From Flammeovirgaceae bacterium (GTDB lineage: Bacteria > Bacteroidota > Bacteroidia > Cytophagales > Cyclobacteriaceae): 64,000 nt of DNA. This document shows, one piece after another, positions 6,140 to 18,805 of this stretch (within the stretch, counting starts at the first letter, position 1; every line of letters begins with the position of its first letter). The notes under the pieces are model-generated. The model saw nothing but the letters and a program-made list of their open reading frames with translations. It did no database searches and had not been told where the DNA came from. A program made the translations under genes and the position numbers. The stretch lies in assembly GCA_015180985.1 (NCBI GenBank), contig CP054185.1:2417225-2481224 (forward strand), read 5' to 3'.

Positions 6140-7033
6140 TATGCGCCTGCGGGCCAGGGCATAACCGGCAGCGGGCATTGGGCGGTGGGCTTGCGGAGCG
6201 TGAGTGAAAATTTTGCGTTGCTGTCAGGCAGTGCTTTTGGTGCGTTATACAACACCGCTAACCTATCCGACAGCGAGCGGTTTAACATGGCGCTGGCTAT
6301 GTCGCAGCGGCCATCTGAAAGTGATTTAAGCTATATTGCTGCTGCCTTAGGTGCAAAAGGCATGGAAGTAAGCGGCAATAATATGTGGATGACTGTGAAT
6401 CTTGAGCAAGCAGTTTATGCCGGAGGATTGGAAGCCGAAAATCAAATCCGCATGGGCACCTATGGTGTGATCAATTTCTCAATAGGTGTTGGAAAGAAGC
6501 ATCTACTTTCAGCTCTTCGTTCTCATTATCGGCAACAACAGCAACAAACCGAAAAGGGGCCACTCTTCATTGATGGAATGATTTTGAACACCGATAATCC
6601 TTACAGGTATTCTCCCGTAGCTTATTTCAATTACACGCTAACAACAGGTGAAGGACACGTAGCAATTTATTCCGGCAACAGTGTTCGAATTATTTCCATT
6701 GATGGAAAAGGGAATTTAACGGATCGTACATCAAAGGTGGGTCCGAAGATTGATTTAATGAAGTACACTTCAAACAATGGATTTTTTCAATTGCCAAGAG
6801 ATTATTCCAGATCGAGTCTTGAAGAAGCAATGGGTAAAAAGTATGCGGATCAGTTCTGGCAAGTCTTTACAAATGGTGATGGTTACTTTATGACTGACAA
6901 GCCATTCAAAGCAATTGGAGCTTATCTAAATGATGCCCCATATAGTGATATCACATTTAGGTTTAGGTTCAACGTCAACAATTTTGAAGGGCACAATTAC
7001 AATGTGGTTTTAAATGTTTACTATGGTCATTAG
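6140..7033 (+). pseudogene. Module A: RHS-protein C-terminal tip, 5'-truncated; unknown CT domain
   Basis: The coding frame is recognisable from about 6140 (YAPAGQGITGSGHWAVG) and runs open to 7033, but it joins the 83-bp repeat out of frame, so no native start exists; a GTG at 6185 is the first possible one. From 6185 to 6541 it is nearly identical to 12799-13155 in module E (two base differences found). After the RQQQQQTEKGP delimiter it diverges completely, the pattern of polymorphic toxin C-termini. The ~160-residue CT has no family I recognise; GEGHVAIYSGN might belong to a papain-like fold, which is weak. It overlaps its partner gene by about 11 bases, as toxin-immunity pairs often do. 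Confidence 0.6.
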
Positions 7034-7511
7034 ATTATTCAAGGATAGATATTTTCAATCCTGTTTGTTGATTTGTTTTGTGCTCGGCTTCAGTCAGTGC
7101 AGCCGTAAGGATTGTTATCGACTACAGTTTCCAGTAACTCAAGATTCGACTTTAACCAAGGGGGCTCCAGTAGTATTTGATAACGGGATAGTTGGTTATG
7201 TTGAAGACGTGGAGAAATCAAATGAAGGTTCAGTTGCAGAGTTTTGTCTTCCTAATGCCGTGCAAATCCCTAAGAACTCAAAAATCTACGTTGGCTTTAT
7301 TCAAGCCTTCAGTGTTTACGGGATCAAGATTGAGTCAAGCAGTGAATCAGGATTTATAAGCAGTAAGGAATTATTGCAAGGATTTCCAATGGATTCTATT
7401 GACGTCAATTTTTCAGTTTCCGACACAGCGTTGACAAATAAGCTAATAGATATCGTGAAGGATATCAACGAGGAGCAAAAGAATAAAAAGGATTCAACTT
7501 CTAAGGAATAG
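7023..7511 (+). CDS. Module A partner: MCE/MlaD-like exported protein, candidate immunity
   Basis: About 162 residues. Two ATGs (7014 and 7023) are possible; 7023 gives a cleaner N-terminus, MVIRLFKDRYFQSCLLICFVLGFSQC, with a hydrophobic segment before a cysteine (signal peptide or atypical lipobox). The body (LTKGAPVVFDNGIVGYVEDVE, IPKNSKIYVG, FSVYGIKIES) has the spacing of the MCE/MlaD beta-barrel domain, though family membership is by eye only. The C-terminus is a charged helix rich in Lys and Glu. Position and overlap with the CT gene suggest an immunity role in the periplasm, but an independent lipoprotein is possible. A terminator follows directly. Confidence 0.5.
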   Translation: MVIRLFKDRYFQSCLLICFVLGFSQCSRKDCYRLQFPVTQDSTLTKGAPVVFDNGIVGYVEDVEKSNEGSVAEFCLPNAVQIPKNSKIYVGFIQAFSVYGIKIESSSESGFISSKELLQGFPMDSIDVNFSVSDTALTNKLIDIVKDINEEQKNKKDSTSKE

Positions 7512-7516
7512 AAACG

Positions 7517-7541
7517 CAAAGCCCCGCGACCCGGGGCTTTT
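7517..7541 (+). terminator. Terminator after module A partner
   Basis: AGCCCCG at 7520-7526 pairs with CGGGGCT at 7532-7538, followed by TTTTGTTTT. The preceding AAACGCAA at 7512-7519 begins directly after the partner's stop codon and matches the cassette-boundary motif seen elsewhere in the island. Confidence 0.75.
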
Positions 7542-7547
7542 GTTTTA

Positions 7548-7637
7548 TCAACCAGCAACCAAGTTTGAAAGGTTGTCTTTAAGTTTTTTCTTAGCGATGA
7601 GTGAATCGAGCAGAGCGAGGAAAGCAGACTTTTCTTT
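7548..7637 (-). pseudogene. 3' remnant of an unidentified gene, cut by the hairpin repeat
   Basis: On the minus strand the ~29 codons ending at 7548 read KSAFLALLDSLIAKKKLKDN..LVAG and a stop. This looks like a genuine coiled C-terminus joined to the hairpin repeat at 7638 onward, whose translation is shared by other repeat copies. So a gene once reading leftward lost everything but its last codons. LLDSLIAKKK recalls C-termini of type I restriction specificity subunits, but this is too short to assign. Confidence 0.35.
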
Positions 7638-7638
7638 C

Positions 7639-7710
7639 TGTCCCCGCAGCGCCTCCTGCAAGGAACTCTGCGGCAGGGTAGTATGTAAATAGCAAAAACC
7701 GTATCTTAGT
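7639..7710. repeat. Island hairpin repeat, copy R1
   Basis: An imperfect hairpin at 7644-7673 has outer arms CCGCAG/CTGCGG and inner arms TCCT/AGGA around GCA. It is followed by a conserved tail ending with TATCTTAG at 7702-7709, which resembles the Bacteroidota -7 box TAnnTTTG with one mismatch. Related copies lie at 9481, 11410, 14161 and 16363. It starts each RHS unit and here abuts a truncated minus-strand gene. Confidence 0.75.
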
Positions 7711-9058
7711 GATGTGCAATGACCTGCGCCCAATCGAATATTATCTACAATGTTTACCCGCCAAAGCAAATCGAAGGCAAACGGTCACCAGTTGCCTGCC
7801 CACCGCAGCCTTGGCGAAGGTGGGGACCCGCGAAAACGTAACCGGCAACAACTTTTTATACAACGGGGGCACGGAGCTAAACACTACCACTAACGTGTAT
7901 GACCTGTTTTTCCGCAACTACGACCCCACCCTGGGCCGCATGAATCAAATTGATCCGATGGCCGCCAAGTACGCCAGCCTTACACCATATAACTACAGCT
8001 TTAACAACCCGATAGGCTATAACGACCCCAGCGGAGCTGAGCCGCCCCAAACCATCAACCACAGCGCGTTTTATAACCAGTACTACATTGGCTATACCTA
8101 CGATGACCGGGTAGATTACACCGGCCTGGGTGACCCAGTGTGCGGCCACTGCTGGCGCACGGGCAACAGTTTAACCATGTATCAAAGTTTTACAGGATAT
8201 AGTACATCTAGCATGGGCCCCGGGTGGCGGCCTGGGCAGAGCGGCTTAACGCCCATCATCAGCCAATGGGCACCTGATTTTGGCGGGCCGGTGTATCTGG
8301 GTTTAGATGCTAACGGAAACTCAATACATGCGCTGCCGAGTCAAATTGAAAGAGCTGGGGGCGCTCGCGCGTACTTTAACCAAGTATATAATTACCGCCT
8401 GGGAATGGCAGCGTTTAATATGGTGCAGCGACCACTTGTAAAAGACGAGGGATATTCAGGCTTTTTTCCGGTAGTGAACGGGCGGTTGGATTTAGCGAAT
8501 GCAAAATTTTACAGGTGGAGTGCAGAGATTGACCTGAAAAATATTGTTGCGAGTGCACGAGAGCAACAAACCGGAGGGTGCCCTCCGGGTACGCCATGCG
8601 ATGGGCCATGGCTAAAAAACTCAGTTAATCAATATCATCCACCACAGAATAACCCTGAAGGGCTCTCTACTTCATTTATTCTAGGAACTTCTTTTACGGC
8701 AGGAAAGAACGTTGCCACCAAAGCTCGTCTAGAGATTCTAAGGCAAATCAAAATTAACAATTCACTAAGAGGCCCAAGTGTTCAATTTGACGGCCCACTA
8801 AAAGTACCCAACGGTGTAAAGTTCGTGGCTTCATATGGTGGCTATGGTTTTACTGCTTGGGGCGCCTATGATGTCAATTCACAATGGAAGTCGGGTCAAT
8901 TAAGCACTGGCCAAATGGTAGTTGAACAAATATCCAACGTCATTGGTGCTATAACCTATATGGGCATTGGTACTGCATGGAGCATTGGCTGGAATCTCGG
9001 AGGACAATATGGTCCAAGTAAGTGGTATGGCAGTGATGATACAAAGTGGTTTAAATAG
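7709..9058 (+). CDS. Module B: orphan RHS core with hydrophobic C-terminal toxin-like domain
   Basis: About 450 residues; the 5' part of an RHS protein is missing. RHS core residues (about 50-110) read NNFLYNGG, YDLFFRNYDPTLGRMNQIDPMAAKYASLTPYNYSFNNP and DPSG, the standard RHS-repeat-associated core. A linker with CGHCWRT and MGPGWRPGQ follows, then REQQTGGCP near residue 290, then a unique ~150-residue CT ending in a Gly-rich hydrophobic segment (IGAITYMGIGTAWSIGWNLGG). One base is missing in the leader relative to module F, so the ATGACCTGC start used there is out of frame; only GTG/ATG at 7709/7712 remain. This suggests a silent or poorly expressed orphan. A membrane protein follows 15 bases later, consistent with a membrane-acting toxin. 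Confidence 0.65.
   Translation: MMCNDLRPIEYYLQCLPAKANRRQTVTSCLPTAALAKVGTRENVTGNNFLYNGGTELNTTTNVYDLFFRNYDPTLGRMNQIDPMAAKYASLTPYNYSFNNPIGYNDPSGAEPPQTINHSAFYNQYYIGYTYDDRVDYTGLGDPVCGHCWRTGNSLTMYQSFTGYSTSSMGPGWRPGQSGLTPIISQWAPDFGGPVYLGLDANGNSIHALPSQIERAGGARAYFNQVYNYRLGMAAFNMVQRPLVKDEGYSGFFPVVNGRLDLANAKFYRWSAEIDLKNIVASAREQQTGGCPPGTPCDGPWLKNSVNQYHPPQNNPEGLSTSFILGTSFTAGKNVATKARLEILRQIKINNSLRGPSVQFDGPLKVPNGVKFVASYGGYGFTAWGAYDVNSQWKSGQLSTGQMVVEQISNVIGAITYMGIGTAWSIGWNLGGQYGPSKWYGSDDTKWFK
7793..7829. repeat. In-frame palindromic insert (CLPTAALAKVG type)
   Basis: TGCCTGCCCACCGCAGCC then TTGGCGAAGGTGGGGAC, with CCCACC/GGTGGG and CCTT/AAGG arms. It is translated in frame just before the RHS core residues RENVTGNN. 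Copies are at 12313-12349 and 16536-16571, and a related element interrupts the core at 12466-12498. Confidence 0.55.
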
Positions 9059-9073
9059 AAATAAAAAATTAGA

Positions 9074-9472
9074 ATGCTGTACCGATATATTTTTTGCAAA
9101 GCATATTACTTCTGCATCTGGGCTTTTAAGGAGAGAGAGTTTCCATGGGCATGGGCGGCTATGACTACATCAATGATTATTGTAGGTACAGTTATTACCT
9201 TATTGGAATTACTCGAAGTATTGATGTTGCCTGAAAGAATCAACATATACGGAGAGTACCACAAATATTTTTCGTTAGGCATGGCGATACTTTCTCTTTT
9301 CTATGTAAAGCACAATAACAGGTATCTGAAGATATTAAAGGGTTGCAAAAAGTTATCCGAGAGAAGAAGAAAATTCCTGCGCTTTGTGTGCGTTGCTTAC
9401 CTGTTGATTTTAGTTGTAGGCTTTTTTTGGTTTGGAGGAATAATCAGAGATTTCAATATTAAACACAAGTGA
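9074..9472 (+). CDS. Module B partner: small membrane protein, candidate immunity
   Basis: 132 residues with about three to four predicted membrane helices (around MTTSMIIVGTVITLLELLEV, YFSLGMAILSLFYV and FVCVAYLLILVVGFFWFGGII) and a basic loop, YLKILKGCKKLSERRRKF. It lies directly 3' of the module B CT and is AT-rich relative to the RHS core. Its layout (paired helices, Arg/Lys-rich cytoplasmic loop, final hydrophobic pair) resembles the module E partner at 13611-13988, so the two may be distant relatives. A membrane immunity protein against a membrane-targeting CT is the simplest reading; no direct evidence of activity. Confidence 0.5.
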   Translation: MLYRYIFCKAYYFCIWAFKEREFPWAWAAMTTSMIIVGTVITLLELLEVLMLPERINIYGEYHKYFSLGMAILSLFYVKHNNRYLKILKGCKKLSERRRKFLRFVCVAYLLILVVGFFWFGGIIRDFNIKHK

Positions 9473-9480
9473 AACTATTC

Positions 9481-9557
9481 TGTCCCCGCAGCGTCTCCTG
9501 CAAGGGAGTCTGCGGCAGGGCAGTATATAAATAACAAAAACCGTATCTTAGTAATGT
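9481..9557. repeat. Island hairpin repeat, copy R2
   Basis: Hairpin at 9486-9515 (CCGCAG/CTGCGG outer arms) followed by the conserved tail with TATCTTAG at 9544-9551. It begins eight bases after the module B partner stop and heads module C. Confidence 0.75.
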
Positions 9558-9579: not shown

Positions 9580-10308
9580 ATGACCTGCACCAAATCCAAT
9601 ATCATCCACGAACGATTTAACATGGCTATGGGGTTGGTAAAAGATTATGGAGGTACCATAACACACGCGCCCACCATTGAAGCCATATGGAATACATTAA
9701 GTAACAACGGTGCAGTTGTATTTACCTTTGGCGGAGTTAGCGGCATAAATAACATCTATCTGGTAGGCGGCATAACGGCCACCGACAGGTCACCGGGCCC
9801 GCTAATTGCATCACAGGGCGGGTTTGCACCATGGATGCTGGCGGGGTGGCAGCAGGGGCAAACGCAAGAGGGGCCGCAGGGTCCGAAATTTTATTATGAT
9901 GCGATTCACGGTATGGTTTTGAACGATGGAAAGACATTAAGCCGTGATGATGTTGCTTTGTCTTTTGATCCATCGCCAGGTAATGCGACCTATCTTGGTT
10001 TTAAGAATGGAAAGCACCATGTGAATTTCAATATCGAAGACTTTGAAATAACGAAGGGTAATATTCGTGCTTTGATGATACACGAAATATTTGGCCATGG
10101 AGTCAAAGGTTATGGAGATAAAACAAATGATCATTACAAAGCATATTGGGCATCAATTGATAGCAAGTATTGGTCTTCAACAACTGACCAATTCAGAATC
10201 CATACAGCTGAAGGTTTATGGCTAACATGGACACGCATAGGAAACTATGACGGAATGCCAACAAAGTACATGAATGTAATTTATCAGTACCATCCATCTT
10301 TCAGGTAA
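9580..10308 (+). CDS. Module C: RHS-derived HExxGH zincin-like toxin candidate
   Basis: About 242 residues from ATG 9580, the leader start shared with modules E and F (MTC.KSNII). The RHS core is deleted: the leader joins directly to a linker beginning ERFNMA, also present in modules A and E. Then come WMLAGWQQGQTQEGP, the delimiter, and the CT. HEIFGHG at 10081-10101 (residue ~168) is an HExxGH zinc-site motif of the type known in M49 peptidases; the downstream H/D-rich NDHYKAYW could supply another ligand. The last ~170 residues align well by eye with module F. Expected activity is metallopeptidase; target unknown. The partner gene starts one base after the stop, so translation is probably coupled. 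Confidence 0.65.
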   Translation: MTCTKSNIIHERFNMAMGLVKDYGGTITHAPTIEAIWNTLSNNGAVVFTFGGVSGINNIYLVGGITATDRSPGPLIASQGGFAPWMLAGWQQGQTQEGPQGPKFYYDAIHGMVLNDGKTLSRDDVALSFDPSPGNATYLGFKNGKHHVNFNIEDFEITKGNIRALMIHEIFGHGVKGYGDKTNDHYKAYWASIDSKYWSSTTDQFRIHTAEGLWLTWTRIGNYDGMPTKYMNVIYQYHPSFR

Positions 10309-10309
10309 A

Positions 10310-10939
10310 ATGAGAAAGCTTTTGTTAGTATTGTTGCTGTTGAAAAGTGGAATTATATCAGCAGATGACTGTAAAAAAATTTCCAAAGAAGATATCTACA
10401 ACTATGCAGATATAATTTTTTTAGGTCATGTATTTGAGGTAGGAGATTCGACCTACCGAATAAATGTTATGGAGTGGTACAAGGGTAAATTTCTTGAGGA
10501 TACGCTAACAGGGATGATTACTCAAAGAGTAATGACTCCAAAGACTGGGAGCATTTGGCTAATCTTTGGCAAAACGCAGCCAGGTGATAAATTTTTGGCC
10601 GATGTATGTAGTGGTTCAAAGAGCCTAAGTTCACCACATGGTACACATGATATTACTTTTCCTGAAGTGCCCCCGCCTGATGTTTTTAAAAACCCTTCAC
10701 AGCTTTTCTTGGCTAAGCAGATAGTTTTAGATAAAGCCCTGAACGAGTTTTATTTTGATGTTGCCAGTTTACGGGCAAGGAAAGCGCAACAGGTAAATGA
10801 GAGTATAAAGGAAAAGTATAGTCATCTGGAAAAAAAATACTCTCAATTATCCGATGACCTGAATTTTTTGAAGTGGGCAGTAATTGTTTTGATTATTGTG
10901 ACAGTAACATCAACTGTCGTCCGTTTGATAAAGAAATGA
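10310..10939 (+). CDS. Module C partner: membrane-anchored NTR/TIMP-like inhibitor, candidate immunity
   Basis: 209 residues: signal peptide (1-18, cleavage likely after ISA), NTR-like domain (about 19-115), helical linker with heptad-like EKYSHLEKKYSQLSDD (about 160-180), and a C-terminal membrane helix ending in basic VRLIKK. The domain has the bacterial NTR/TIMP pattern: Cys21, then YADIIFLGHV, then EWYKGK, then GSIWLIF, then Cys100. It aligns without gaps in these segments with the module F partner, but lacks the equivalents of that protein's Cys20 and Cys73, a pair expected to form one disulfide. TIMPs inhibit zinc metalloproteinases, and the neighbour is zincin-like, so a cognate inhibitor facing the periplasm is inferred. 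Confidence 0.6.
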   Translation: MRKLLLVLLLLKSGIISADDCKKISKEDIYNYADIIFLGHVFEVGDSTYRINVMEWYKGKFLEDTLTGMITQRVMTPKTGSIWLIFGKTQPGDKFLADVCSGSKSLSSPHGTHDITFPEVPPPDVFKNPSQLFLAKQIVLDKALNEFYFDVASLRARKAQQVNESIKEKYSHLEKKYSQLSDDLNFLKWAVIVLIIVTVTSTVVRLIKK

Positions 10940-10943
10940 TTAA

Positions 10944-11261
10944 CAAACGCAAAATGGGCCTATCTCAATGACTGTTGGAAATGAACCAACAGGTACCGCG
11001 TATGTCAGAGGTTATCCTGTTGATGTCCGTGATGGACAGGGTCGAGGGATAATTTTCGAAGTTCCAACATATGCAATGACTGTTTCAGGCACTGATGCAA
11101 AAGGAAATGCAGTTTCGAAAACTTTTACAGTTCTACGTTATGGAGTTTATAATAACAAGAACGGGCCAAGTGTAGTAGGCACAAATAGTGGGACGTATAA
11201 TCTTACTTGGGGAAATTATCTTGGTGGAGCGGTACTAGGCTGCTTTTTTTGTACAGGTTAA
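10944..11261 (+). pseudogene. Module D: bare CT fragment starting at the QTQxGP delimiter
   Basis: Four bases after the module C partner stop, the frame opens with CAAACGCAA encoding QTQNGPIS, exactly the delimiter found before other CTs, and continues through ATG 10968 to 11261. About 100 residues follow (for example AYVRGYPVDVRDGQGRG and VSGTDAKGNAVSKTFTVLRYG). No RHS core or usable start is present, and the final residues CFFCTG are read from a putative IS3 end at 11250, so the domain is truncated at both sides. The family is not recognised. Confidence 0.5.
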
Positions 11262-11408
11262 AAGTAGGATTTTCTAATTTAACCAACCAAAAAAAAGTCA
11301 AAATGAAGAAGAGCAAATTTACCGAGGCCCAGATTATTGGCATCCTCAACGAACAAATCCAACAAGACCAGAAGGTGGCCGAAGTATGCCGCAAGCATGG
11401 TATTAGCT
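11250..11408 (+). mobile_element. IS3-family remnant: left end and start of orfA
   Basis: ATG 11302 begins MKKSKFTEAQIIGILNEQ and continues to VAEVCRKHGIS, the helix-turn-helix N-terminus of IS3-family OrfA transposase. It breaks at 11408, where hairpin repeat R3 begins; the rest of the IS is absent. TGTACAGGTTAAAAGTAGG from 11250 may be the left inverted repeat, placing the insertion in the module D CT. Confidence 0.7.
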
Positions 11409-11409
11409 C

Positions 11410-11486
11410 TGTCCCCGCAGCGTCTCCTGCAAGGAACGCTGCGGCAGGGTAGTATGTAAATAGCAAAAACCGTATCTTAGTGATGT
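11410..11486. repeat. Island hairpin repeat, copy R3 (best hairpin)
   Basis: CCGCAGCG at 11415-11422 pairs perfectly with CGCTGCGG at 11437-11444, with an inner TCCT/AGGA pair and GCA loop. The conserved tail has TATCTTAG at 11473-11480. It replaces the rest of the IS3 orfA gene. No RHS core follows; 11487-11668 holds leader-like sequence (GGTACGGTAACTATGACT) that degenerates, with no gene seen before ORF6N. Confidence 0.75.
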
Positions 11487-11668
11487 CTCCCGTCCGGTAC
11501 GGTAACTATGACTATGGCCTGTACCAAATTTAATGTCACCCAAAATCTGCCAAAGCATGAACGAAGTCGGGAGTATTACTTCCGCAACCATAACCTTGTT
11601 CTAAGCCCAGCTTTTGCCTTGGGGTGAAGAAATTTTTGGAGATATTTGAATAATAGCTAAAAGAACGG

Positions 11669-12199
11669 ATGACAAAGAGTGTTGCAGTTCCTGATGAAGT
11701 GGTAATGAATAAAATTTACCTGATCAGAAATCATAAAGTAATGTTGGACAGAGACCTTGCGGAACTTTACGGAGTGAAAGCCATACGATTAAGAGAACAG
11801 GTGAAACGTAATCAAGAGCGGTTCCCCGGGAATTTCATGTTCCAACTTACCGAACAGGAGGCAGAAAGCATGGTATCGCAAAATGCGATACCTTCAAAAC
11901 AACACCTGGGTGGTTACTTACCTTATGCTTTTACTGAACACGGAGTGTTAATGCTGGCCAATGTTTTAAAAAGTGAGCAGGCGATTAAAATGAGTATCCG
12001 GATAATAGAAATCTTTGTGAAGCTTCGGGAAACGTTACTGACTCACAAAGACATTCTACTGAAGCTTGAACAATTGGAAAGAAAAACCCTTCGGCAAGAT
12101 GGAGACATAAAACTGATTTTTAAATACCTGAAAGAATTACTCAATCCGCCTACCGTACCTACGCGCAAGATTGGTTTTAGGCGCAAAGAAGAAGATTAG
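11669..12199 (+). CDS. ORF6N domain protein
   Basis: 176 residues. The N-terminal ~95 residues carry the ORF6N DNA-binding domain: KIYLIRNHKVMLDRDLAELYGV, LREQVKRNQERFPGNFMFQLT and LPYAFTEHGVLMLANVL. A helical tail (LLKLEQLERKTLRQDGD) follows. ORF6N proteins occur in phages and mobile regions and resemble antirepressors; many Bacteroidota chromosomes carry single copies. Here it sits in the array between degenerate repeat R3 and module E with no partner gene, so it is probably a passenger. A regulatory role in the array is possible but unsupported. Confidence 0.85.
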   Translation: MTKSVAVPDEVVMNKIYLIRNHKVMLDRDLAELYGVKAIRLREQVKRNQERFPGNFMFQLTEQEAESMVSQNAIPSKQHLGGYLPYAFTEHGVLMLANVLKSEQAIKMSIRIIEIFVKLRETLLTHKDILLKLEQLERKTLRQDGDIKLIFKYLKELLNPPTVPTRKIGFRRKEED

Positions 12200-12233
12200 G
12201 GAAGCTAAGTGGAAGTACCCTGCCAAACAAGAA

Positions 12234-12241
12234 TAACTTAG
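12234..12241 (+). promoter_or_regulatory. TAACTTAG box before module E
   Basis: Same TAnCTTAG element as in the hairpin repeat tails, kept here although the hairpin itself is missing. It lies three bases before the module E start, too close for a normal 5' leader, so its role as a -7 box is uncertain. Confidence 0.3.
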
Positions 12242-12243
12242 CC

Positions 12244-13602
12244 ATGACCTGCGCCAAATCCAATATCATCCAATACCCGCCAAAGCAAAAGCGAAGGCAA
12301 ACGGTCACCAGTTGCCTGCCCACCGCAGCCTTGGCGAAGGTGGGGACCCGCGAAAACGTAACCGGCAACAACTTTTTATACAACGGGGGCACGGAACTGA
12401 ATACTACCACTAACGTGTACGATCTGTTTTTCCGCAACTACGACCCCGCCTTGGACCACATGAACGCCTGCCTGCCGAAGCGTTTGCGTAGGCATGGGGT
12501 AGACCCGATGGCGAGGAAGTACGCGAGCTTAACGCCTTACAATTATTCATTTAACGACCCGGTAACCTTCACCGATCCGAATGGTGCCGACCCTGAGGGA
12601 TACTGGGAAGGAGCCGAGCCGATTTTTGAACAATACACAATGCGGATGTACAGCCCAACTTACGGCTGGCTGCAGGATGATGTTATCTATCAGCGTATTG
12701 TTGGCTGGCGCGGCCCTGGAGCACGGTATGCCGGTCCGGGGCTTGACTGGATGTTTGGCAAGGCGGGAATAGGACCGGCATCGGGAGGGCACTGGGCAGT
12801 GGGCTTGCGGAGCGTGAGTGAAAATTTTGCGTTGCTGTCAGGTAGTGCTTTTGGTGCGTTATACAACACCGCTAACCTATCCGACAGCGAGCGGTTTAAC
12901 ATGGCGCTGGCTATGTCGCAGCGGCCATCTGAAAGTGATTTAAGCTATATTGCTGCTGCCTTAGGTGCAAAAGGCATGGAAGTAAGCGGCAATAATGTGT
13001 GGATGACTGTGAATCTTGAGCAAGCAGTTTATGCCGGAGGATTGGAAGCCGAAAATCAAATCCGCATGGGCACCTATGGTGTGATCAATTTCTCAATAGG
13101 TGTTGGAAAGAAGCATCTACTTTCAGCTCTTCGTTCTCATTATCGGCAACAACAGACACAGGGAAATGGGCCAAACGGATGGAATCAATTTTGGATCGGA
13201 TTTGCTGGTTCGCAGAACTCTACGGATTTCAGTTCGGCAACTACTGTAACAAGCACGGCTTTATTCTGGGTTGATGGTGTGGGAAGTTCAGTCAAGTACA
13301 GTGCTAGGACTTTTGGTGAACTCCGAAATGCTGTGAGAGCGGAAAAGTTCTTTAAACCTCTAGGTGTTGTTGGTGGGATAGTAACAACCTCAATGACAGC
13401 ATATGATGCGACACAGGATGGAAGTATATCAAATGGCGACTGGTTTAAAATTGGTGCTGGTGTTCTCCAAGTAGGTTTAGCTTTTACTCCAGTTGGGTGG
13501 GGTGTACTTGCCTACAATGGTGTAGATCTCTTAGTTGGCATCACGACAGGAACATCTGTTACAGACAGAATAGCAAATGGAATAGACAAAATAGGTAAAT
13601 AG
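12244..13602 (+). CDS. Module E: orphan RHS core with glycine-rich hydrophobic toxin-like CT
   Basis: 452 residues from ATG 12244 (MTCAKSNII). Leader, palindromic insert, RHS core (NNFLYNGG, YDLFFRNYDPALDHMN, VDPMARKYASLTPYNYSFNDP), a second palindromic insert inside the core, then a long linker almost identical to module A (12799-13155). After RQQQTQGNGP the CT is unique: about 145 residues with hydrophobic Gly-rich stretches (LGVVGGIVTTSMTAYDATQDG, GAGVLQVGLAFTPVGWGVLAYNGVDLLVGITTGTSVTDRI). Similar endings are common among Bacteroidota RHS proteins and suggest membrane insertion, though no named toxin family was recognised. A membrane partner gene follows nine bases later. Confidence 0.65.
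   Translation: MTCAKSNIIQYPPKQKRRQTVTSCLPTAALAKVGTRENVTGNNFLYNGGTELNTTTNVYDLFFRNYDPALDHMNACLPKRLRRHGVDPMARKYASLTPYNYSFNDPVTFTDPNGADPEGYWEGAEPIFEQYTMRMYSPTYGWLQDDVIYQRIVGWRGPGARYAGPGLDWMFGKAGIGPASGGHWAVGLRSVSENFALLSGSAFGALYNTANLSDSERFNMALAMSQRPSESDLSYIAAALGAKGMEVSGNNVWMTVNLEQAVYAGGLEAENQIRMGTYGVINFSIGVGKKHLLSALRSHYRQQQTQGNGPNGWNQFWIGFAGSQNSTDFSSATTVTSTALFWVDGVGSSVKYSARTFGELRNAVRAEKFFKPLGVVGGIVTTSMTAYDATQDGSISNGDWFKIGAGVLQVGLAFTPVGWGVLAYNGVDLLVGITTGTSVTDRIANGIDKIGK
12466..12498. repeat. Palindromic element inserted in frame within the RHS core
   Basis: Modules B and F encode MNQIDPM at this site. Here MN-ACLPKRLRRHG-VDPM is read instead, a net gain of 30 bases. The insert carries TGCCT/AGGCA arms and resembles the TGCCTGCC...GGGG element 150 bases upstream. 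The frame is preserved, as in Rickettsia palindromic elements. Confidence 0.6.
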
Positions 13603-13610
13603 TATATACA

Positions 13611-13988
13611 ATGATTCTTTTTGATTACATCTGGCTCAGGATCGCTAAAGTTTATTACAAATGGAGGGACAGTGAAGGTTTTACTGCTACTGGCTTTTTA
13701 TCGTTGAGTCAAGGAATTTTAGTTGGCGATATAGTACAAATCATTCTTAAGTTAACAGGTACTTCTGATTCGCTTTATGATTCTCTAGGCAAAGGAGGCT
13801 ATAGTAAGCTTGGTCTCGGCCTTACTCTTTTCCTGCTTGTCTTTAATTATCTCCGTTACCGAAAAAAGTACTGGCCTTTGCGAGAGCGATGGAGAGATGA
13901 GAGCCATTCATTTTTGAAAGGAATCTTAGTCATCTTGGCTCTACTATTCCCACTTGTTTTGTGGTACATGCTCATAAAATTGTTTTAA
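13611..13988 (+). CDS. Module E partner: small membrane protein, candidate immunity
   Basis: 125 residues. An N-terminal amphipathic part (IWLRIAKVYYKWRDSEGF) is followed by about three to four membrane helices (LSLSQGILVGDIVQIILKL, KLGLGLTLFLLVFNYL and LKGILVILALLFPLVLWYMLIKLF) and a basic loop, RYRKKYWPLRERWRD. It starts nine bases after the module E CT. The helix and loop order matches the module B partner, supporting a shared immunity-protein type for both hydrophobic CTs. Function is inferred from position and topology only. Confidence 0.5.
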   Translation: MILFDYIWLRIAKVYYKWRDSEGFTATGFLSLSQGILVGDIVQIILKLTGTSDSLYDSLGKGGYSKLGLGLTLFLLVFNYLRYRKKYWPLRERWRDESHSFLKGILVILALLFPLVLWYMLIKLF

Positions 13989-14002
13989 CCAAATATAGAG
14001 AA

Positions 14003-14160
14003 GAGGCTGTCTCAAAAGAAGAGATGGCTTCTTTTTTTGAAGGCTTAGATTTTCTTTTAGCTTTTGAAGTAATTTTTTGAAGAAGAAAAATCTTGAGCCG
14101 GACTTAGGCTGCCCATTTCGCTATATTATGTGCCAGAGCAAGCAATCCGGTTTCAATTTT
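14003..14160 (-). mobile_element. IS1182-type transposase remnant
   Basis: GAGGCTGTCTCAAAAG at 14003 resembles a terminal inverted repeat of IS1182-type elements. On the minus strand, the codons ending at 14104 read KIETGLLALAHNIAKWAA and a stop, like the C-terminus of those transposases. The remainder was lost where hairpin repeat R5 begins at 14161. Confidence 0.6.
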
Positions 14161-14238
14161 CTTCCCCCGCAGCGTCTCCTGCAAGGGCTCTGCGGCAGGC
14201 GGTGTACGTAAGCAAAAATAATTCTAACTTAGTAAATG
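14161..14238. repeat. Island hairpin repeat, copy R5
   Basis: Hairpin at 14167-14195 (CCGCAG/CTGCGG) with a diverged tail in which the box is TAACTTAG (14225-14232). It abuts the IS1182 remnant exactly and leads into module G after a shortened leader. Confidence 0.7.
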
Positions 14239-14266
14239 TATAAAAAGTCAATCCAGTCCCGCCTGC

Positions 14267-15256
14267 ATGAACCAGGTTTATAAATACAGCCTTAACAACC
14301 CGGTGGGCTATAACGACCCCAGCGGAGCTGAGCCGCCCCCAACCATTAACCACAGCGCGTTTTATAACCAGTACTACATAGGCTATACCTACGATGACCG
14401 GGTAGATTACACCGGCCTGGGCGACCCGGTGTGCGGCCACTGCTGGCGTACCGAAATGCCCGGGGTTATGGGCTTTTATATGGCGGCTACGGGGTATGGC
14501 GGTGCCTTATTTGGCATGGGCCCCGGGTGGAAGCCGGGGCAGGGCAGTATGTTTGCCGCTTTTAATGCGTGGGTTGACAACCAGGTAGCAAAAGCCCACC
14601 AGCGACAGAATATTAAGAGAGGAATTACAGAAGCGCTTACAAGTAAAGACCAAGGAATATTTAATGTCGATCCCCGAACAGGAAAGGTTACCCAACTATT
14701 TTCGCAGGATAAATTCAGAAAGGACTTTGACACATATATTAACATGATTGCAGGTACTACTTCTTTTGTGCGGGGGTATGAAGGAGCTGCAGGGCCCGGT
14801 CATCCATTGTGGAGTTTATTTTTGGGCAAATTACGCAACACATTGGAGACATTAGGCTTTCGTGAAAGAGAGGGTACAAAAATTGGTTTTAACAGTAATG
14901 GATATGGAGTAGTTATTATCGGTAACGGTAATACGGAGCATGCTCTAAAAAAAGTAGGCTACAAGCATATTGGTGAAGTGGATCTAAACAACCCTGAAGA
15001 TCTATTTAACATATTGAATAAACTAACGGCAGCCAATGAACTGGAAGCAATCAGTAGTTTTTATCAAACATTCTATACCAATCCACTGAATCAGAATTGG
15101 CGGGGTGAGTTGAAACTGTATTATCGTGATCCTTCGCACCCGGGATATTACTGGAGCCCTGCCACAAGTGGCGATATCGGATATAAAATTCAAATATCCT
15201 CGGATGGAAGCTGGTCCGTTCGGTCATTTTCTTGGCAACTTGGTCCTCCTAATTAA
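14267..15256 (+). CDS. Module G: orphan RHS tip with unidentified CT
   Basis: 329 residues from ATG 14267. Only the end of the RHS core remains (MNQVYKYSLNNPVGYNDPSGAEPP), then the same linker as module B (TINHSAFYNQYYIGYTYDD..CGHCWRT) for about 60 residues. Thereafter it diverges: GFYMAATGYGGALFGMGPGWKPGQG, a helical region and a ~200-residue CT rich in charged residues (NGNTEHALKKVGYKHIGEVDLNNPEDLFNILNKL). No QTQxGP delimiter is seen, unlike most modules. The CT is not recognised; its soluble, mixed character would suit an enzyme. A small exported protein follows 13 bases later. Confidence 0.6.
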   Translation: MNQVYKYSLNNPVGYNDPSGAEPPPTINHSAFYNQYYIGYTYDDRVDYTGLGDPVCGHCWRTEMPGVMGFYMAATGYGGALFGMGPGWKPGQGSMFAAFNAWVDNQVAKAHQRQNIKRGITEALTSKDQGIFNVDPRTGKVTQLFSQDKFRKDFDTYINMIAGTTSFVRGYEGAAGPGHPLWSLFLGKLRNTLETLGFREREGTKIGFNSNGYGVVIIGNGNTEHALKKVGYKHIGEVDLNNPEDLFNILNKLTAANELEAISSFYQTFYTNPLNQNWRGELKLYYRDPSHPGYYWSPATSGDIGYKIQISSDGSWSVRSFSWQLGPPN

Positions 15257-15269
15257 CTTTTCTAGTTAT

Positions 15270-15728
15270 ATGATCGTAATGCTTAAACTCATAGTACCTA
15301 TTTTACTGCTGTTGATTAACATTTCTTGTAGAGTAAATCCTGAGATTGCAAAAAGGATTGAACTGGATGGGCTAAATGGACGATGTTACTACTTTTTTAG
15401 TAGAGACAATAGAAATATTATTCGTGTGGCAAAAATTGAATACTTAAAGTATATCTGTTGTGATGTTACAATAAACAGTGATACTATTTTAATTGGCGAA
15501 AAATTTATTGCAGACATTTCTGTCACAGGCCGAGATTTCAAAGCATTTATAACCGAGCCATCACAGGATACAATCACAGGGAAATTTGAACCGAGCGAAC
15601 TTCCTCAGAAAACGAAAGCTTACTATTTTGAACCCACCGTCCCTGGTCTTTTCAATTTTAAATGCAGAATCGAATATGATACAATTTCAATTCCCTTTGA
15701 GTATAAGTTTCTTGTTTTGCCAAAGTGA
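15270..15728 (+). CDS. Module G partner: small exported protein, candidate immunity
   Basis: 152 residues from ATG 15270; the frame is open further upstream but would overlap module G deeply, and the hydrophobic signal MIVMLKLIVPILLLLINISC sits at this start. A cysteine at the end of the signal may be lipid-modified, although Asn at -3 is not a classic lipobox. The mature part is beta-rich with CRVN, GRCYYFF, YICCDVTIN and FNFKCRIEYDTISIPFEYKFLVL, resembling an immunoglobulin-like fold. The gene is AT-rich. A role as immunity lipoprotein follows from position only. Confidence 0.45.
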   Translation: MIVMLKLIVPILLLLINISCRVNPEIAKRIELDGLNGRCYYFFSRDNRNIIRVAKIEYLKYICCDVTINSDTILIGEKFIADISVTGRDFKAFITEPSQDTITGKFEPSELPQKTKAYYFEPTVPGLFNFKCRIEYDTISIPFEYKFLVLPK

Positions 15729-15778
15729 GGGGTTTAGTAAATAGTCACAGTATTTTCTGCTATAACTTAAAATTCCTT

Positions 15779-15786
15779 TATATTTG
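15779..15786 (+). promoter_or_regulatory. Bacteroidota -7 box before the VapBC-like pair
   Basis: TATATTTG is an exact match to TAnnTTTG, 14 bases before the ATG at 15801. No clear -33 TTTG element was found at the usual spacing, so this is moderate evidence. Confidence 0.5.
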
Positions 15787-15800
15787 TTTATCATGTATCT

Positions 15801-15965
15801 ATGATAATAAGAGTAAAAAAGCGAATGAAGCCGGAAGAGGTGGAGAAGAAGCTTCGAACCCGCAAGAAAACTAAAGTTCTTCGCGCCAAGGATCATTTAG
15901 GCAAGGTAAAATGGAACGAAGACCCTCTTGCTTATCAAATCCGCAAGCGGAATGAGTGGGATTAG
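15801..15965 (+). CDS. Putative antitoxin of a VapBC-like pair
   Basis: A 54-residue, very basic protein (MIIRVKKRMKPEEVEKK... ending AYQIRKRNEWD). Its stop lies inside the start of the PIN gene, with a 14-base overlap, the usual order for a VapB antitoxin followed by VapC toxin. The C-terminal acidic/aromatic KVKWNEDPLAYQ could be the toxin-binding tail. No DNA-binding fold was recognised in the N-terminus, so the identification depends on gene order. Confidence 0.5.
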   Translation: MIIRVKKRMKPEEVEKKLRTRKKTKVLRAKDHLGKVKWNEDPLAYQIRKRNEWD

Positions 15966-16323
15966 AATTGTTTCGGACACCAACCCGTTAATTTACCTGC
16001 TGTCCGGAAGTAAAGAAGTTGGAAATCATCTGGATGGAAAAGAATGTTGGATTTCAGTAATAACCGAACTGGAATTATTTGGCAAAAAAGGTCTTAGTGC
16101 TCAGCATAAACGCGAGATCCAAAAATTATTGGATAGTTGTTTTATTGTTGACTTGCTTCCGGAAATCAAGTCTCTTATTAAAGATATTCAGCAGACCAAT
16201 ACCTTAAAGTTACCAGATGCCATTATTGCTGCAACTGCAATATACCTTGATTTACCCCTGCTTACAGCCGATAAGAATTTTAAAAAGATCGGAGACCTTG
16301 AGCTTATTCTGATTTCAATTTAA
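15952..16323 (+). CDS. PIN-domain ribonuclease toxin, VapC-like
   Basis: 123 residues from ATG 15952 (MSGIRIVSDTNPLIYLL). PIN-domain acidic residues are visible in SDTNPLIY, ISVITELELFG, KLPDAIIAATAIYLDLPLLTADKNF, matching the conserved Asp, Glu, Asp, Asp set that binds metal at the RNase active site. Length is typical of VapC. With the overlapping upstream small gene it forms a type II toxin-antitoxin unit between modules G and F, probably a passenger stabilising the island. The RNA target cannot be predicted. Confidence 0.8.
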   Translation: MSGIRIVSDTNPLIYLLSGSKEVGNHLDGKECWISVITELELFGKKGLSAQHKREIQKLLDSCFIVDLLPEIKSLIKDIQQTNTLKLPDAIIAATAIYLDLPLLTADKNFKKIGDLELILISI

Positions 16324-16362
16324 TTTCTTCTCTCCATGGCCTTTGTTGTGCCTTCTTCTCCC

Positions 16363-16438
16363 TTCCCCGCAGCATCTCCTGCAAGGTGCTCTGCGGCAGG
16401 GCAGTATGTAAATAACAAAAACCGTATCTTAGTGATGT
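16363..16438. repeat. Island hairpin repeat, copy R6
   Basis: Hairpin at 16367-16396 (CCGCAG/CTGCGG) and conserved tail with TATCTTAG at 16425-16432. It lies 29 bases before ATG 16461 of module F, the most plausible promoter-leader-start arrangement among the copies. Confidence 0.75.
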
Positions 16439-16460
16439 ATCCCGTTGCGGTACGGTAACT

Positions 16461-17750
16461 ATGACCTGCACCCAATCGAATATCATCTACAATGTTTACC
16501 CGCCAAAGCAAAATCGAAGGCAAACGGTCACCAGTTGCCTGCCCACCGCAGCCTTGGCGAAGGTGGGGACCCGCGAAAACGTAACCGGCAACAACTTTTT
16601 ATACAACGGGGGCACGGAATTAAACCCCGCTACCAACGTGTATGATCTGTTTTTCCGCAACTACGACCCCGCCCTGGGCCGCATGAATCAAATTGATCCG
16701 ATGGCCGCCAAGTACGCCAGCCTTACGCCTTATAACTTTGCCCTTAACAACCCCGCCACCCTTAACGACCCGCTGGGCGATGACGTGGAGCCGCCCCCGC
16801 CCGGTGAGTACCGCGAATATATTTGCGGCCAGTGCTGGCGCGATGAACGCAGCATGAATATGTACATGTCCGCTACAGGATATGGCGGAGGAGGTTATAC
16901 CAACTGGCAGGCCAGTACGTTTGCTGGAATGATGTCCATTGGTTCATTTCTTTCAGCAGCTTTGAGTAGTCCTCATGGAGGAACGTGGCGTGCCGGCAAT
17001 GCCACATTTTTTACCAGTACTTCGCAGGCGATAGCTGTGGGTTTGAACTATTTGAGTTTCCATGGAGTTTCCAAGTCACTAGGTTCTGCATTGGCGTCAA
17101 ATTCTTCGGGTAAATCTACTGATGTAAAGGCAGAAAGTGGGTGGGTACGTGGCTGGGCTAAAGTATGGAACGGGAAGTATGGTGAAAAGAGCAGAAATGT
17201 TTGGAAGAGGATACCAAAGCTGGGTACAGACAAGAAGGAGGGGAGAGCTGAAAGCACTAATTTTTTAACCTGGACACATTCAGCATGGATGCTGGCGGGG
17301 TGGCAGCAGGGGCAAACCCAAACAGGGCCTGACTTTTATTATAACGCATTAAATGGCTTGGTGCTTAATAATGGTACAATACTGAGTAAAAATGATTTGG
17401 TTTTAACTTTTAATAATTTGCCATATAGAGATGCGAGATACTTAGGATTTAAAGACGGTAAGTATCATGTAAACTTCGACATTAAAAGTTTCGAAGAAAC
17501 TCAAGCCAATATACGGGCAACAGCAATACATGAAATTTTTGGTCATGGTGTTAAGGGTTACGGCAATCCTGACAAGACGCACCATAAGGCATATTTTGCT
17601 ACTATCGATAGTAAATACTGGAAAGCAACCACTGATGCTTTTAAAACATCTACGGTCGATCTCATGTGGAAATATTTTTATAATGAGGTCGGTAATCAAA
17701 GGATGCCAGAACCTTATCAGACCTTGTACGATTTATACCACAGTAAGTGA
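16461..17750 (+). CDS. Module F: orphan RHS core with HExxGH zincin-like toxin domain
   Basis: 429 residues. Leader MTCTQSNII, palindromic insert, complete RHS core (NNFLYNGG, YDLFFRNYDPALGRMNQIDPMAAKYASLTPYN), linker with CGQCWRD, a ~120-residue spacer, WMLAGWQQGQTQTGP and a ~140-residue CT. HEIFGHG at 17529-17549 (residue ~357) is an HExxGH zinc motif; the following HHKAYFATIDSKYW matches the module C CT (HYKAYWASIDSKYW), marking conserved residues. It is the most complete orphan tip in the array and has a leader with promoter-like box. The CT is inferred to be a metallopeptidase; the substrate is unknown. The stop codon overlaps the partner's ATG by one base (TGATG). Confidence 0.7.
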   Translation: MTCTQSNIIYNVYPPKQNRRQTVTSCLPTAALAKVGTRENVTGNNFLYNGGTELNPATNVYDLFFRNYDPALGRMNQIDPMAAKYASLTPYNFALNNPATLNDPLGDDVEPPPPGEYREYICGQCWRDERSMNMYMSATGYGGGGYTNWQASTFAGMMSIGSFLSAALSSPHGGTWRAGNATFFTSTSQAIAVGLNYLSFHGVSKSLGSALASNSSGKSTDVKAESGWVRGWAKVWNGKYGEKSRNVWKRIPKLGTDKKEGRAESTNFLTWTHSAWMLAGWQQGQTQTGPDFYYNALNGLVLNNGTILSKNDLVLTFNNLPYRDARYLGFKDGKYHVNFDIKSFEETQANIRATAIHEIFGHGVKGYGNPDKTHHKAYFATIDSKYWKATTDAFKTSTVDLMWKYFYNEVGNQRMPEPYQTLYDLYHSK

Positions 17751-18364
17751 TGAAGAAGGTAATTTTTATGTCTTTATTGACTCTTACTTTTGTGGAGTCG
17801 TTAGCTTGTGCCTGTACAACAATCTCGAAGTATGATGATTACACGACTTCGGACTTTGTATTTATTGGAACGGTCACAGATGTAAATAACGTGTTTTTTG
17901 AAATTAGAGCACATGAATTTTTCAAAGGACAAAGTTCTGACACCTTAGTTGCCAATATTGATGACTGCTCGATAGTCCCGGAGAAAGGAGAGATTTGGTT
18001 GTTCTATGCAGTTAAGACAGATGATAATAGAATTTATGTGAGCCAGTGTGGGTCATCACGAAGTTTTAGAAGACCCTTTAGCTTTAACATGAACAATTTT
18101 CCTAAACCACCACCACCTAACGTTGATGAAGGACTCCTAAAAGTAATGAATGAATTGAATAAGGATAGGGCGCTCGCGGAACTTCATCATGACATATCGA
18201 GTCTTCGCGTAAAGAAAATTCAGACTGACTTACAAAATGCTAATGAAGATCTATTGGAAGTCAAAGGGCAAGTCAGATTGCTTATTGTTGGTCTATGTTT
18301 TTGCATCGTTCTAACAGGTATTCTTGGAGTTATTATTTACAGGAAAGTTCGAAGAAACCATTGA
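17750..18364 (+). CDS. Module F partner: membrane-anchored TIMP-like inhibitor, candidate immunity
   Basis: 204 residues from ATG 17750 (a GTG one codon earlier is also in frame). The signal peptide ends SLA, a signal peptidase I site, leaving CAC at the mature N-terminus, like the CxC start of TIMPs whose Cys1 amine chelates the protease zinc. Four cysteines (20, 22, 73, 100) fit two disulfides, Cys1-type with 73 and Cys3-type with 100. SDFVFIGTV, FFKGQ and GEIWLFY match the NTR fold. A helical linker and a C-terminal membrane helix (LLIVGLCFCIVLTGILGVIIY) anchor it. Paired with a zincin-like CT, it is a strong immunity candidate. Bacterial NTR proteins also exist without a protease partner. 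Confidence 0.65.
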   Translation: MKKVIFMSLLTLTFVESLACACTTISKYDDYTTSDFVFIGTVTDVNNVFFEIRAHEFFKGQSSDTLVANIDDCSIVPEKGEIWLFYAVKTDDNRIYVSQCGSSRSFRRPFSFNMNNFPKPPPPNVDEGLLKVMNELNKDRALAELHHDISSLRVKKIQTDLQNANEDLLEVKGQVRLLIVGLCFCIVLTGILGVIIYRKVRRNH

Positions 18365-18367
18365 GGC

Positions 18368-18805
18368 TGAAGTGACCGGAGAGTAGGGAGAGAAGTTCAA
18401 ACGCAAGGAAGGCCTGACCCTATAGATATTTGGAACAAGGACAGATTAGCCGTATTAAATGGTTTGTTAGATCACTTACACTACATGGGGCATCATCCTG
18501 ATGAACAACATAATCTGCGAGATATAGTAAAAAGTTTTAACGAACCTGTTCCGTGGTGGAAAGGTTGGATACCAGGAGCTGGCCCAAGTAATTCTACGGG
18601 AGGTATTGCCAAAGTATTTGGAGGGTATGTTCAATGGAACATTGCTGCGGCATTGGAAATCCTGATTGGTGAGCAACCGCCATGTATTATCTTTAATTTA
18701 TCGGAGGAGTGTTCGTCTTTGCGCTGTACACCATCTTCGATCCCCACCACAAAAGCCCTTACGTTGACCGGTGGAACATGCGGATGGGCTTTGAGTACAT
18801 ACTAA
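18368..18805 (+). pseudogene. Module H: bare CT fragment at the QTQxGP delimiter
   Basis: The frame is open from 18370 to 18805 without an ATG upstream of the delimiter; CAAACGCAA at 18398 encodes QTQGRPDPIDIWNKDRL, the same delimiter as other modules. The next ~100 residues (LLDHLHYMGHHPDEQHNLRD, PWWKGWIPGAGPSNSTGG) are unlike other CTs. The end overlaps another gene remnant in a different frame, so the domain is probably cut near 18700. No function is assigned. Confidence 0.45.

Follow-up and report, generated by a model that had tools for sequence, protein, structure and literature searches.

Predicted zinc metallopeptidase toxins of the Cytophagales are paired with membrane-anchored partners whose modeled fold is TIMP-like

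A 64,000-nucleotide stretch of the single-contig, 3.38-Mb genome of a Flammeovirgaceae bacterium (GenBank assembly GCA_015180985.1, contig CP054185.1, positions 2,417,225 to 2,481,224; hereafter the window) contains, at ∼6.2-18.8 kb, an array of Rhs cassettes in which a short open reading frame (ORF) with a variable C-terminal (CT) domain is followed by a small gene. The CT domains of modules C and F both carry the stretch HEIFGHG (10081-10101 in toxin C and 17529-17549 in toxin F), and each toxin gene is followed, across a one-base gap in module C and a one-base overlap in module F, by a gene for a partner that appears to be exported and membrane-anchored; an earlier note on this DNA had described both pairs in these terms. 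The predicted structure of partner F has the NTR/TIMP fold. We consider it probable that the pairs encode a zinc metallopeptidase toxin acting in the periplasm and an immunity protein, anchored in the inner membrane, whose TIMP/NTR fold blocks the active-site cleft of the toxin.

The AlphaFold2 model of partner F, built from a 10-sequence alignment, has a pLDDT of 91.6 and a pTM of 0.76. A Foldseek comparison of this model with the whole PDB returned TIMPs (TIMP-1 and TIMP-2) as all of its 14 best matches, the first of them with an E-value of 6.1e-5 and a probability of 1.00, and agrin NtA and other NTR domains rank after them. Using VIA, partner F aligns with N-TIMP-3, taken from its complex with TACE, with a Z score of 11.2 and an rmsd of 2.7 over 106 residues, and the aligned ranges both begin at residue 1 (1-140 of the model on 1-121 of the N-TIMP-3 chain). 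The lower VIA rows are TIMP, NtA, and complement NTR domains; the match is therefore to the NTR fold in general, and TIMP is its closest representative. The earlier note had proposed an NTR/TIMP domain and named structure prediction as the means of refuting it, and the proposal came through that test. It had also looked to profile searches of the TIMP family, where the outcome was different: none of the toxin-linked partners matches the Pfam TIMP model (PF00965), the distant homologue L026 scoring an E-value of 0.0045 and 17.2 bits against a cut-off of 23.1. Sequence and profile searches likewise gave no meaningful PDB match for the partner, so that the TIMP link comes from fold comparison only.

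A two-row profile search (99 relatives) provided eight convincing partner homologues, which have in common Cys3, a (V/I)FxG strand, ExxKG, a W(L/I) strand, and a C-x-x-S segment. The CT domains of toxins C and F are 54-56% identical over ∼155 aa and their partners 27-29% identical. Between toxins F and C, the proportion of nonsynonymous differences (pN, 0.30) is far below that of synonymous differences (pS, 0.89), and it is also below pS for partners F and C (0.51 vs 0.76) and for partner C and L024 (0.24 vs 0.73), indicating that these are selected proteins and not chance ORFs.

Relatives of the toxins were collected by a search of the same order, a scan of named genomes, and then a family search. 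The scan added Marinigracilibium pacificum and put names to the Microscilla and Cytophagales loci, the family search added L044 and L045, and L027 came from the partner search. Weak matches at L004-L008 and L019 appeared unrelated on reading and were dropped. In the resulting nine-row alignment, whose members are 21-55% identical to toxin F, seven columns are invariant (T73, H83, E84, H88, H100, A103, and W113), and four of these (H83, E84, H88, and H100) constitute the HExxxH and further His that a zinc peptidase needs. The motif is HExxGH or HExxSH in all nine members and the classical HExxH in none. The closest outgroup of the family carries HExxH (as HENFH or HEYNH) and includes matches to the Pfam family Tox-MPTase2: L018 at an E-value of 2e-22 and L020 at 3e-5, just below the cut-off, with L023 also Tox-MPTase2-like. 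A profile comparison of the toxin family with L018, L020, and L023 using hhalign scored 96.4% with an E-value of 1.4e-9, the outgroup side consisting of these three sequences. Because the profile links the family to Tox-MPTase2, HExxGH is most plausibly an HExxH into which a single residue has been inserted. Both motif lengths are known within a single zinc-peptidase family, dipeptidyl peptidase III (DPP III), where HEISH is found in C. abyssi and HELMH in Corallococcus (PMC5805324, PMC9820243). Membership in the DPP III family (MEROPS M49), which HExxGH itself had suggested, was set aside since the profile link points to Tox-MPTase2 with HExxH.

The model of the toxin F CT domain (CT-F) comprises strands at residues 34-65, a helix at 74-90 that bears HEIFGH, and a helix at 100-109 that opens with His100. 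This residue, the His of HxxAY on the helix after the zinc helix, is likely the third ligand, to judge from its invariance. The minigluzincins abylysin and selecase are the best peptidase rows in both fold searches of the model, with weak matches. Thus, conservation argues well, and the predicted structure moderately, for zinc binding by the toxins. The zincin assignment made from the HEIFGHG stretch gains from the invariant H-E-x-x-x-H...H pattern and the Tox-MPTase2 profile link and is not matched by an equally clear structural hit; the stretch is present as described, in the form of a six-residue HExxxH and not of the classical HExxH. Sequence and profile searches with the CT domain gave no meaningful PDB match, and neither the CT domain nor the partner is matched in Pfam, NCBIfam, PHROGs, or PADLOC. 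No relative of the toxin or of the partner turned up in phages, plasmids, or viral contigs, and a scan of genome contigs with a linker-peptide pattern drawn from the two window toxins only gave no matches.

The pairing recurs outside the window. A third intact pair, L027/L037, occurs in another genus of the same family, where the TIMP-like partner overlaps the end of the toxin. The L037 toxin is a 1482-aa Rhs protein with a signal peptide, YD repeats, and, at its C-terminal end, a CT domain that is 54% identical to that of toxin F; an Rhs core is also found in the relatives L016, L037, L044, and L045. In L025, the toxin upstream of the partner breaks off ahead of the HE motif; in L024, which belongs to the window's genus, all that precedes the partner is a vestige of the toxin's C-terminal residues. 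Retention of the partner where the toxin has been lost is the behavior of orphan immunity genes, and with the third intact pair these loci lend support to the toxin-immunity pairing that had been postulated from modules C and F. The toxins with TIMP partners form one clade with a support of 96/96. The tree sets the toxin-linked partners at two positions, with low support, and they may stem from one recruitment or from more than one. Elsewhere in the toxin family the neighbors are unrelated: a TPR lipoprotein in L015 and other lipoproteins in L014, L016, L044, and L045. Arrays of the same toxin family with more decayed copies are present in L011 (the region of L015) and L013; the second zinc His is altered in one decayed copy (EFLGPG), and tandem TPR lipoprotein genes adjoin the array in L011.

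The sequences of the partners suggest how they are held in the envelope. In partner F, a Pro-rich link after the NTR domain leads into a single long helix that spans residues 108-184 in the mature model, and the terminal hydrophobic segment (residues 168-200, 18251-18349) has a basic end. Partner C has a signal peptide-like start that is probably cut after residue 18, and its helix is followed by a C-terminal membrane segment (residues 183-209, 10856-10936), also with a basic end. A signal peptide combined with a C-terminal helix of this kind points to a type I inner-membrane protein, the NTR domain of which would lie in the periplasm. Across the wider toxin family, all partners look exported and membrane-anchored, which argues for the envelope as the toxin's site of action.

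Signal-peptidase cut sites were assigned by hand with the -3/-1 rule. If partner F is cut after the preceding Ala, its mature N-terminus is Cys1-Ala-Cys3, beginning at 17807; a cut before Cys3 is also possible. The Cys1-x-Cys3 start is shared by L027, and partner C reads DDC; the Cys-x-Cys start that the earlier note expected in partner F is not present in partner C. TIMPs have disulfides C1–C70 and C3–C99. The cysteine positions of partner F allow these two of the three TIMP disulfides, and the positions of C13–C124 are without cysteines. C3 and C81 are conserved among the partners. C1 and C54 go together: F, L026, L027, L028, and L029 have the two of them, and C, L024, and L025 have neither. 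Because C, L024, and L025 are closely related, this co-absence represents one or two events and not eight independent observations. A Cys1 mechanism taken over unchanged for both pairs cannot hold because partner C lacks Cys1 and its disulfide mate. For C, L024, L025, and L026, the predicted cut lies two residues ahead of Cys3, and in F and L027 this cut is permitted among others. In TIMPs, the zinc is bound by the main-chain amine and carbonyl of residue 1 and not by the Cys side chain (PMC3779175), and residue 2 fills the S1' pocket with Ser or Thr (PMC3779175; PMC3679795). The N-terminal geometry of TIMP is thus possible in all of these partners, though residue 1 is Cys only in some; their residue 2 is Asp or Ala.

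These observations are consistent with the following mechanism. A full-length Rhs protein such as that of L037 would be exported and deliver the CT metallopeptidase to the envelope of a neighboring cell. The CT domain would be a small zinc metallopeptidase of a Cytophagales family related to Tox-MPTase2, with one extra residue in its zinc helix. The adjoining gene would yield a Sec-exported immunity protein with its TIMP/NTR domain in the periplasm and its C-terminal helix in the inner membrane. In sister cells, the NTR domain would bind the peptidase and plug its active-site cleft; the likeliest arrangement, by analogy with TIMP, would set the N-terminal strand beside the zinc. The genes, their pairing in two genera, their selection, the TIMP fold of the partner model, and the toxin's family link are observed, and from them we infer zinc binding, proteolysis, periplasmic action, and protection; chelation of the zinc by the mature N-terminus is the most speculative step. 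True TIMP-type chemistry, in which the mature N-terminal residue chelates the toxin zinc, is advanced here tentatively, as a possibility, in which case the bacterial NTR proteins would be relatives, and perhaps forerunners, of animal TIMPs.

Several observations weigh against the assignment of the pairs as metallopeptidase and TIMP-fold inhibitor. The CT-F model is only moderate (pLDDT 72.8, with most of the first 33 residues below 50), its best peptidase match, abylysin, is weak (E-value 0.24, probability 0.82, Z 4.8), with scores that unrelated chains equal. Toxins F and C are unmatched by the Pfam Tox-MPTase2 model (PF15638) up to an E-value of 1, and L016 reaches 0.01. Partners C, L024, and L025 lack Cys1, and NTR relatives of the partner stand alone, without a toxin, in L026 and L028-L031. 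The partner could be a TIMP-fold immunity protein that acts by another face, binding an exosite or occluding the cleft generally with its loops, without N-terminal zinc chelation, and we regard this as a real prospect that stops somewhat short of probable. It would fit the absence of Cys1 and its disulfide mate in those three partners, the Asp or Ala at residue 2 in place of the Ser/Thr of TIMPs (PMC3779175; PMC3679795), the additional roles of NTR domains other than protease inhibition (PMC3679795), and the guarding of other family members by unrelated lipoproteins. On the other hand, a mature N-terminus two residues before Cys3, as predicted for C, L024, L025, and L026 and permitted for F and L027, keeps the TIMP geometry, and the zinc ligands of TIMP are main-chain groups of residue 1 and not the side chain of Cys (PMC3779175).

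The toxin could also be a non-peptidase metal enzyme or a dead zincin beside a TIMP fold recruited by accident from common envelope NTR proteins, given that HExxxH is not the classical zincin motif, that the toxin model has no strong zincin match, and that relatives possess NTR proteins without toxins. We consider this unlikely in view of the profile link to Tox-MPTase2, the HExxH of the closest outgroup, the invariance of E84, and the high ranking of the minigluzincins abylysin and selecase in the structural comparisons; moreover, that a TIMP fold should adjoin a putative metallopeptidase in three intact pairs is unlikely to be chance. Since NTR proteins also stand alone, the immunity protein probably came from a common family of envelope proteins. 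The standalone proteins of L028, L029, and L030 have a helical tail without a membrane segment and a K/E-rich end, and at L031:1486-1839 a TIMP-like domain ends a protein of MORN-like repeats with no link to a toxin. The type I membrane topology with its long helix would also suit another exported factor, such as an accessory or an anchor that presents the toxin. This role is very improbable for the partner, which occupies the immunity-gene slot of polymorphic toxin loci (PMC3482391), is retained where the toxin was lost (L024 and L025) in the manner of orphan immunity genes, and is replaced in the same slot by different exported proteins in other toxins of the family.

The proposed immunity protein resembles the N-domain of animal TIMP (PF00965) in its predicted fold, in a register that starts from residue 1, in being exported, and in its pairing with a predicted zinc metallopeptidase; partner F further shares two of the three disulfide positions of the N-domain and, if cut after the Ala, the Cys1-x-Cys3 start. 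It differs in lacking the third disulfide and the C-terminal domain of TIMP, with a Pro-rich link, a long helix, and a membrane anchor instead, in the Ala or Asp at position 2, and, in partner C, in the absence of Cys1. The CT-F domain, as modeled, is like the minigluzincins abylysin and selecase in size and in the succession of a short sheet, a zinc helix, and a next helix with the third ligand. Minigluzincins bind zinc through HExxH plus Glu, a difference from the toxins, and their match to CT-F is weak. DPP III is a cytosolic two-domain exopeptidase with Glu as its third ligand. It shares with the toxins the HExxGH zinc motif, with HExxH variants in the family (PMC5805324, PMC9820243), but no homology was seen, and the shared motif likely arose independently. 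Tox-MPTase2 (PF15638), an Rhs metallopeptidase toxin of Bacteroidetes (Zhang et al., 2012, PMC3482391), is similar to the toxins of the window in its Rhs context, its occurrence in Bacteroidota, its domain order, and its succession of HE..H, H (or E) on the next helix, and Q..H..W..T...[FY]K. It differs in having HExxH in place of HExxGH and is too distant in sequence for the toxins to be recognized by the Pfam model.

Literature searches, which covered open-access papers only, found no immunity protein of TIMP or NTR type. The portions of the 2012 polymorphic-toxin survey available to us name no immunity protein for Tox-MPTase1-3 and mention neither TIMP nor the OB-fold (PMC3482391). As far as searched, the loci thus have the layout usual for polymorphic toxins, and what is new is the immunity fold, unreported in the open-access literature searched, together with a toxin family with an altered zinc motif. 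An immunity mechanism is rarely known for bacterial peptidase toxins. If the proposal is correct, TIMP-fold immunity would, within the literature searched, be the first inhibitor of such shape in bacterial warfare and would tie the best-known animal metalloprotease inhibitors to a bacterial arms race. The toxin and its TIMP-like partner form a small, directly testable pair.

Table 1. Features of modules C and F, in window coordinates
Feature	Coordinates	Strand	Remarks
Module C leader, repeated	9519..9556	+	Directly 3' of CCGCAG...CTGCGG hairpin; one of 4 genomic copies
Module C toxin cassette, 250 aa	9556..10308	+	GTG start, ATG possible at 9580; stop TAA 10306-10308
HEIFGH metal motif, toxin C	10081..10098	+	Sequence; metal residues invariant in family alignment
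Candidate third-ligand His (HYKAY), toxin C	10132-10134	+	No variation across the nine-row family alignment
Module C partner, 209 aa	10310..10939	+	ATG one base after toxin stop; NTR/TIMP-like domain by homology to partner F
Module F leader, repeated	16400..16437	+	One of 4 genomic copies, all within array
Module F toxin cassette, 429 aa	16461..17750	+	Stop TGA 17748-17750; CT domain 17283-17747
HEIFGH metal motif, toxin F	17529..17546	+	Sequence; family invariance; within model helix 74-90
Candidate third-ligand His (first of HHKAY), toxin F	17580-17582	+	Starts model helix 100-109
Module F partner, 204 aa from ATG	17750..18364	+	One-base overlap with toxin stop; signal peptide, NTR/TIMP-like domain to ∼18085

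Toxin F retains an Rhs-associated core at ∼16584-16778 (TIGR03696, E-value 4.1e-11). In toxin C, whose CT domain lies at 9829-10305, neither a signal peptide nor an Rhs core can be recognized, the core having been lost from this module. The delivery part, composed of a signal peptide and YD repeats, is absent from both toxins, and a search of the genome found no further copies of the toxin and partner genes. No full-length Rhs toxin with the same core was seen in the genome of the window, where the Rhs-core ORFs found are 313-542 aa long, and toxins C and F are therefore orphan cassettes. Such orphans may be kept as silent material for recombination, in the way known from polymorphic toxins (PMC3482391), with partners that may still be protective. 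Seven Rhs-core matches in ORFs of 313-542 aa make up a second array on the minus strand at 1537136-1550219 of the same genome.

A 38-base leader (GGCAGTATGTAAATAACAAAAACCGTATCTTAGTGATG) heads four cassettes of the window array, at 7677, 9519, 11448, and 16400, and follows a CCGCAG...CTGCGG hairpin. The leader is unique to the array genome-wide and is possibly a cassette promoter or a recombination boundary. In modules A, B, D, and E (6185-9472 and 12244-15728), too, the Rhs CT ORF is accompanied by a small gene for an exported or membrane protein. The module gene at 7014-7511 has a weak MlaD-like match (E-value 0.001), and hydrophobic segments are found in the small genes at 9074-9472, 13611-13988, and 15126-15728; across the array, the products of the immunity genes seem to belong to the envelope. 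After module F, the ORF at 18464-18805 resembles a stray CT fragment without a partner of its own.

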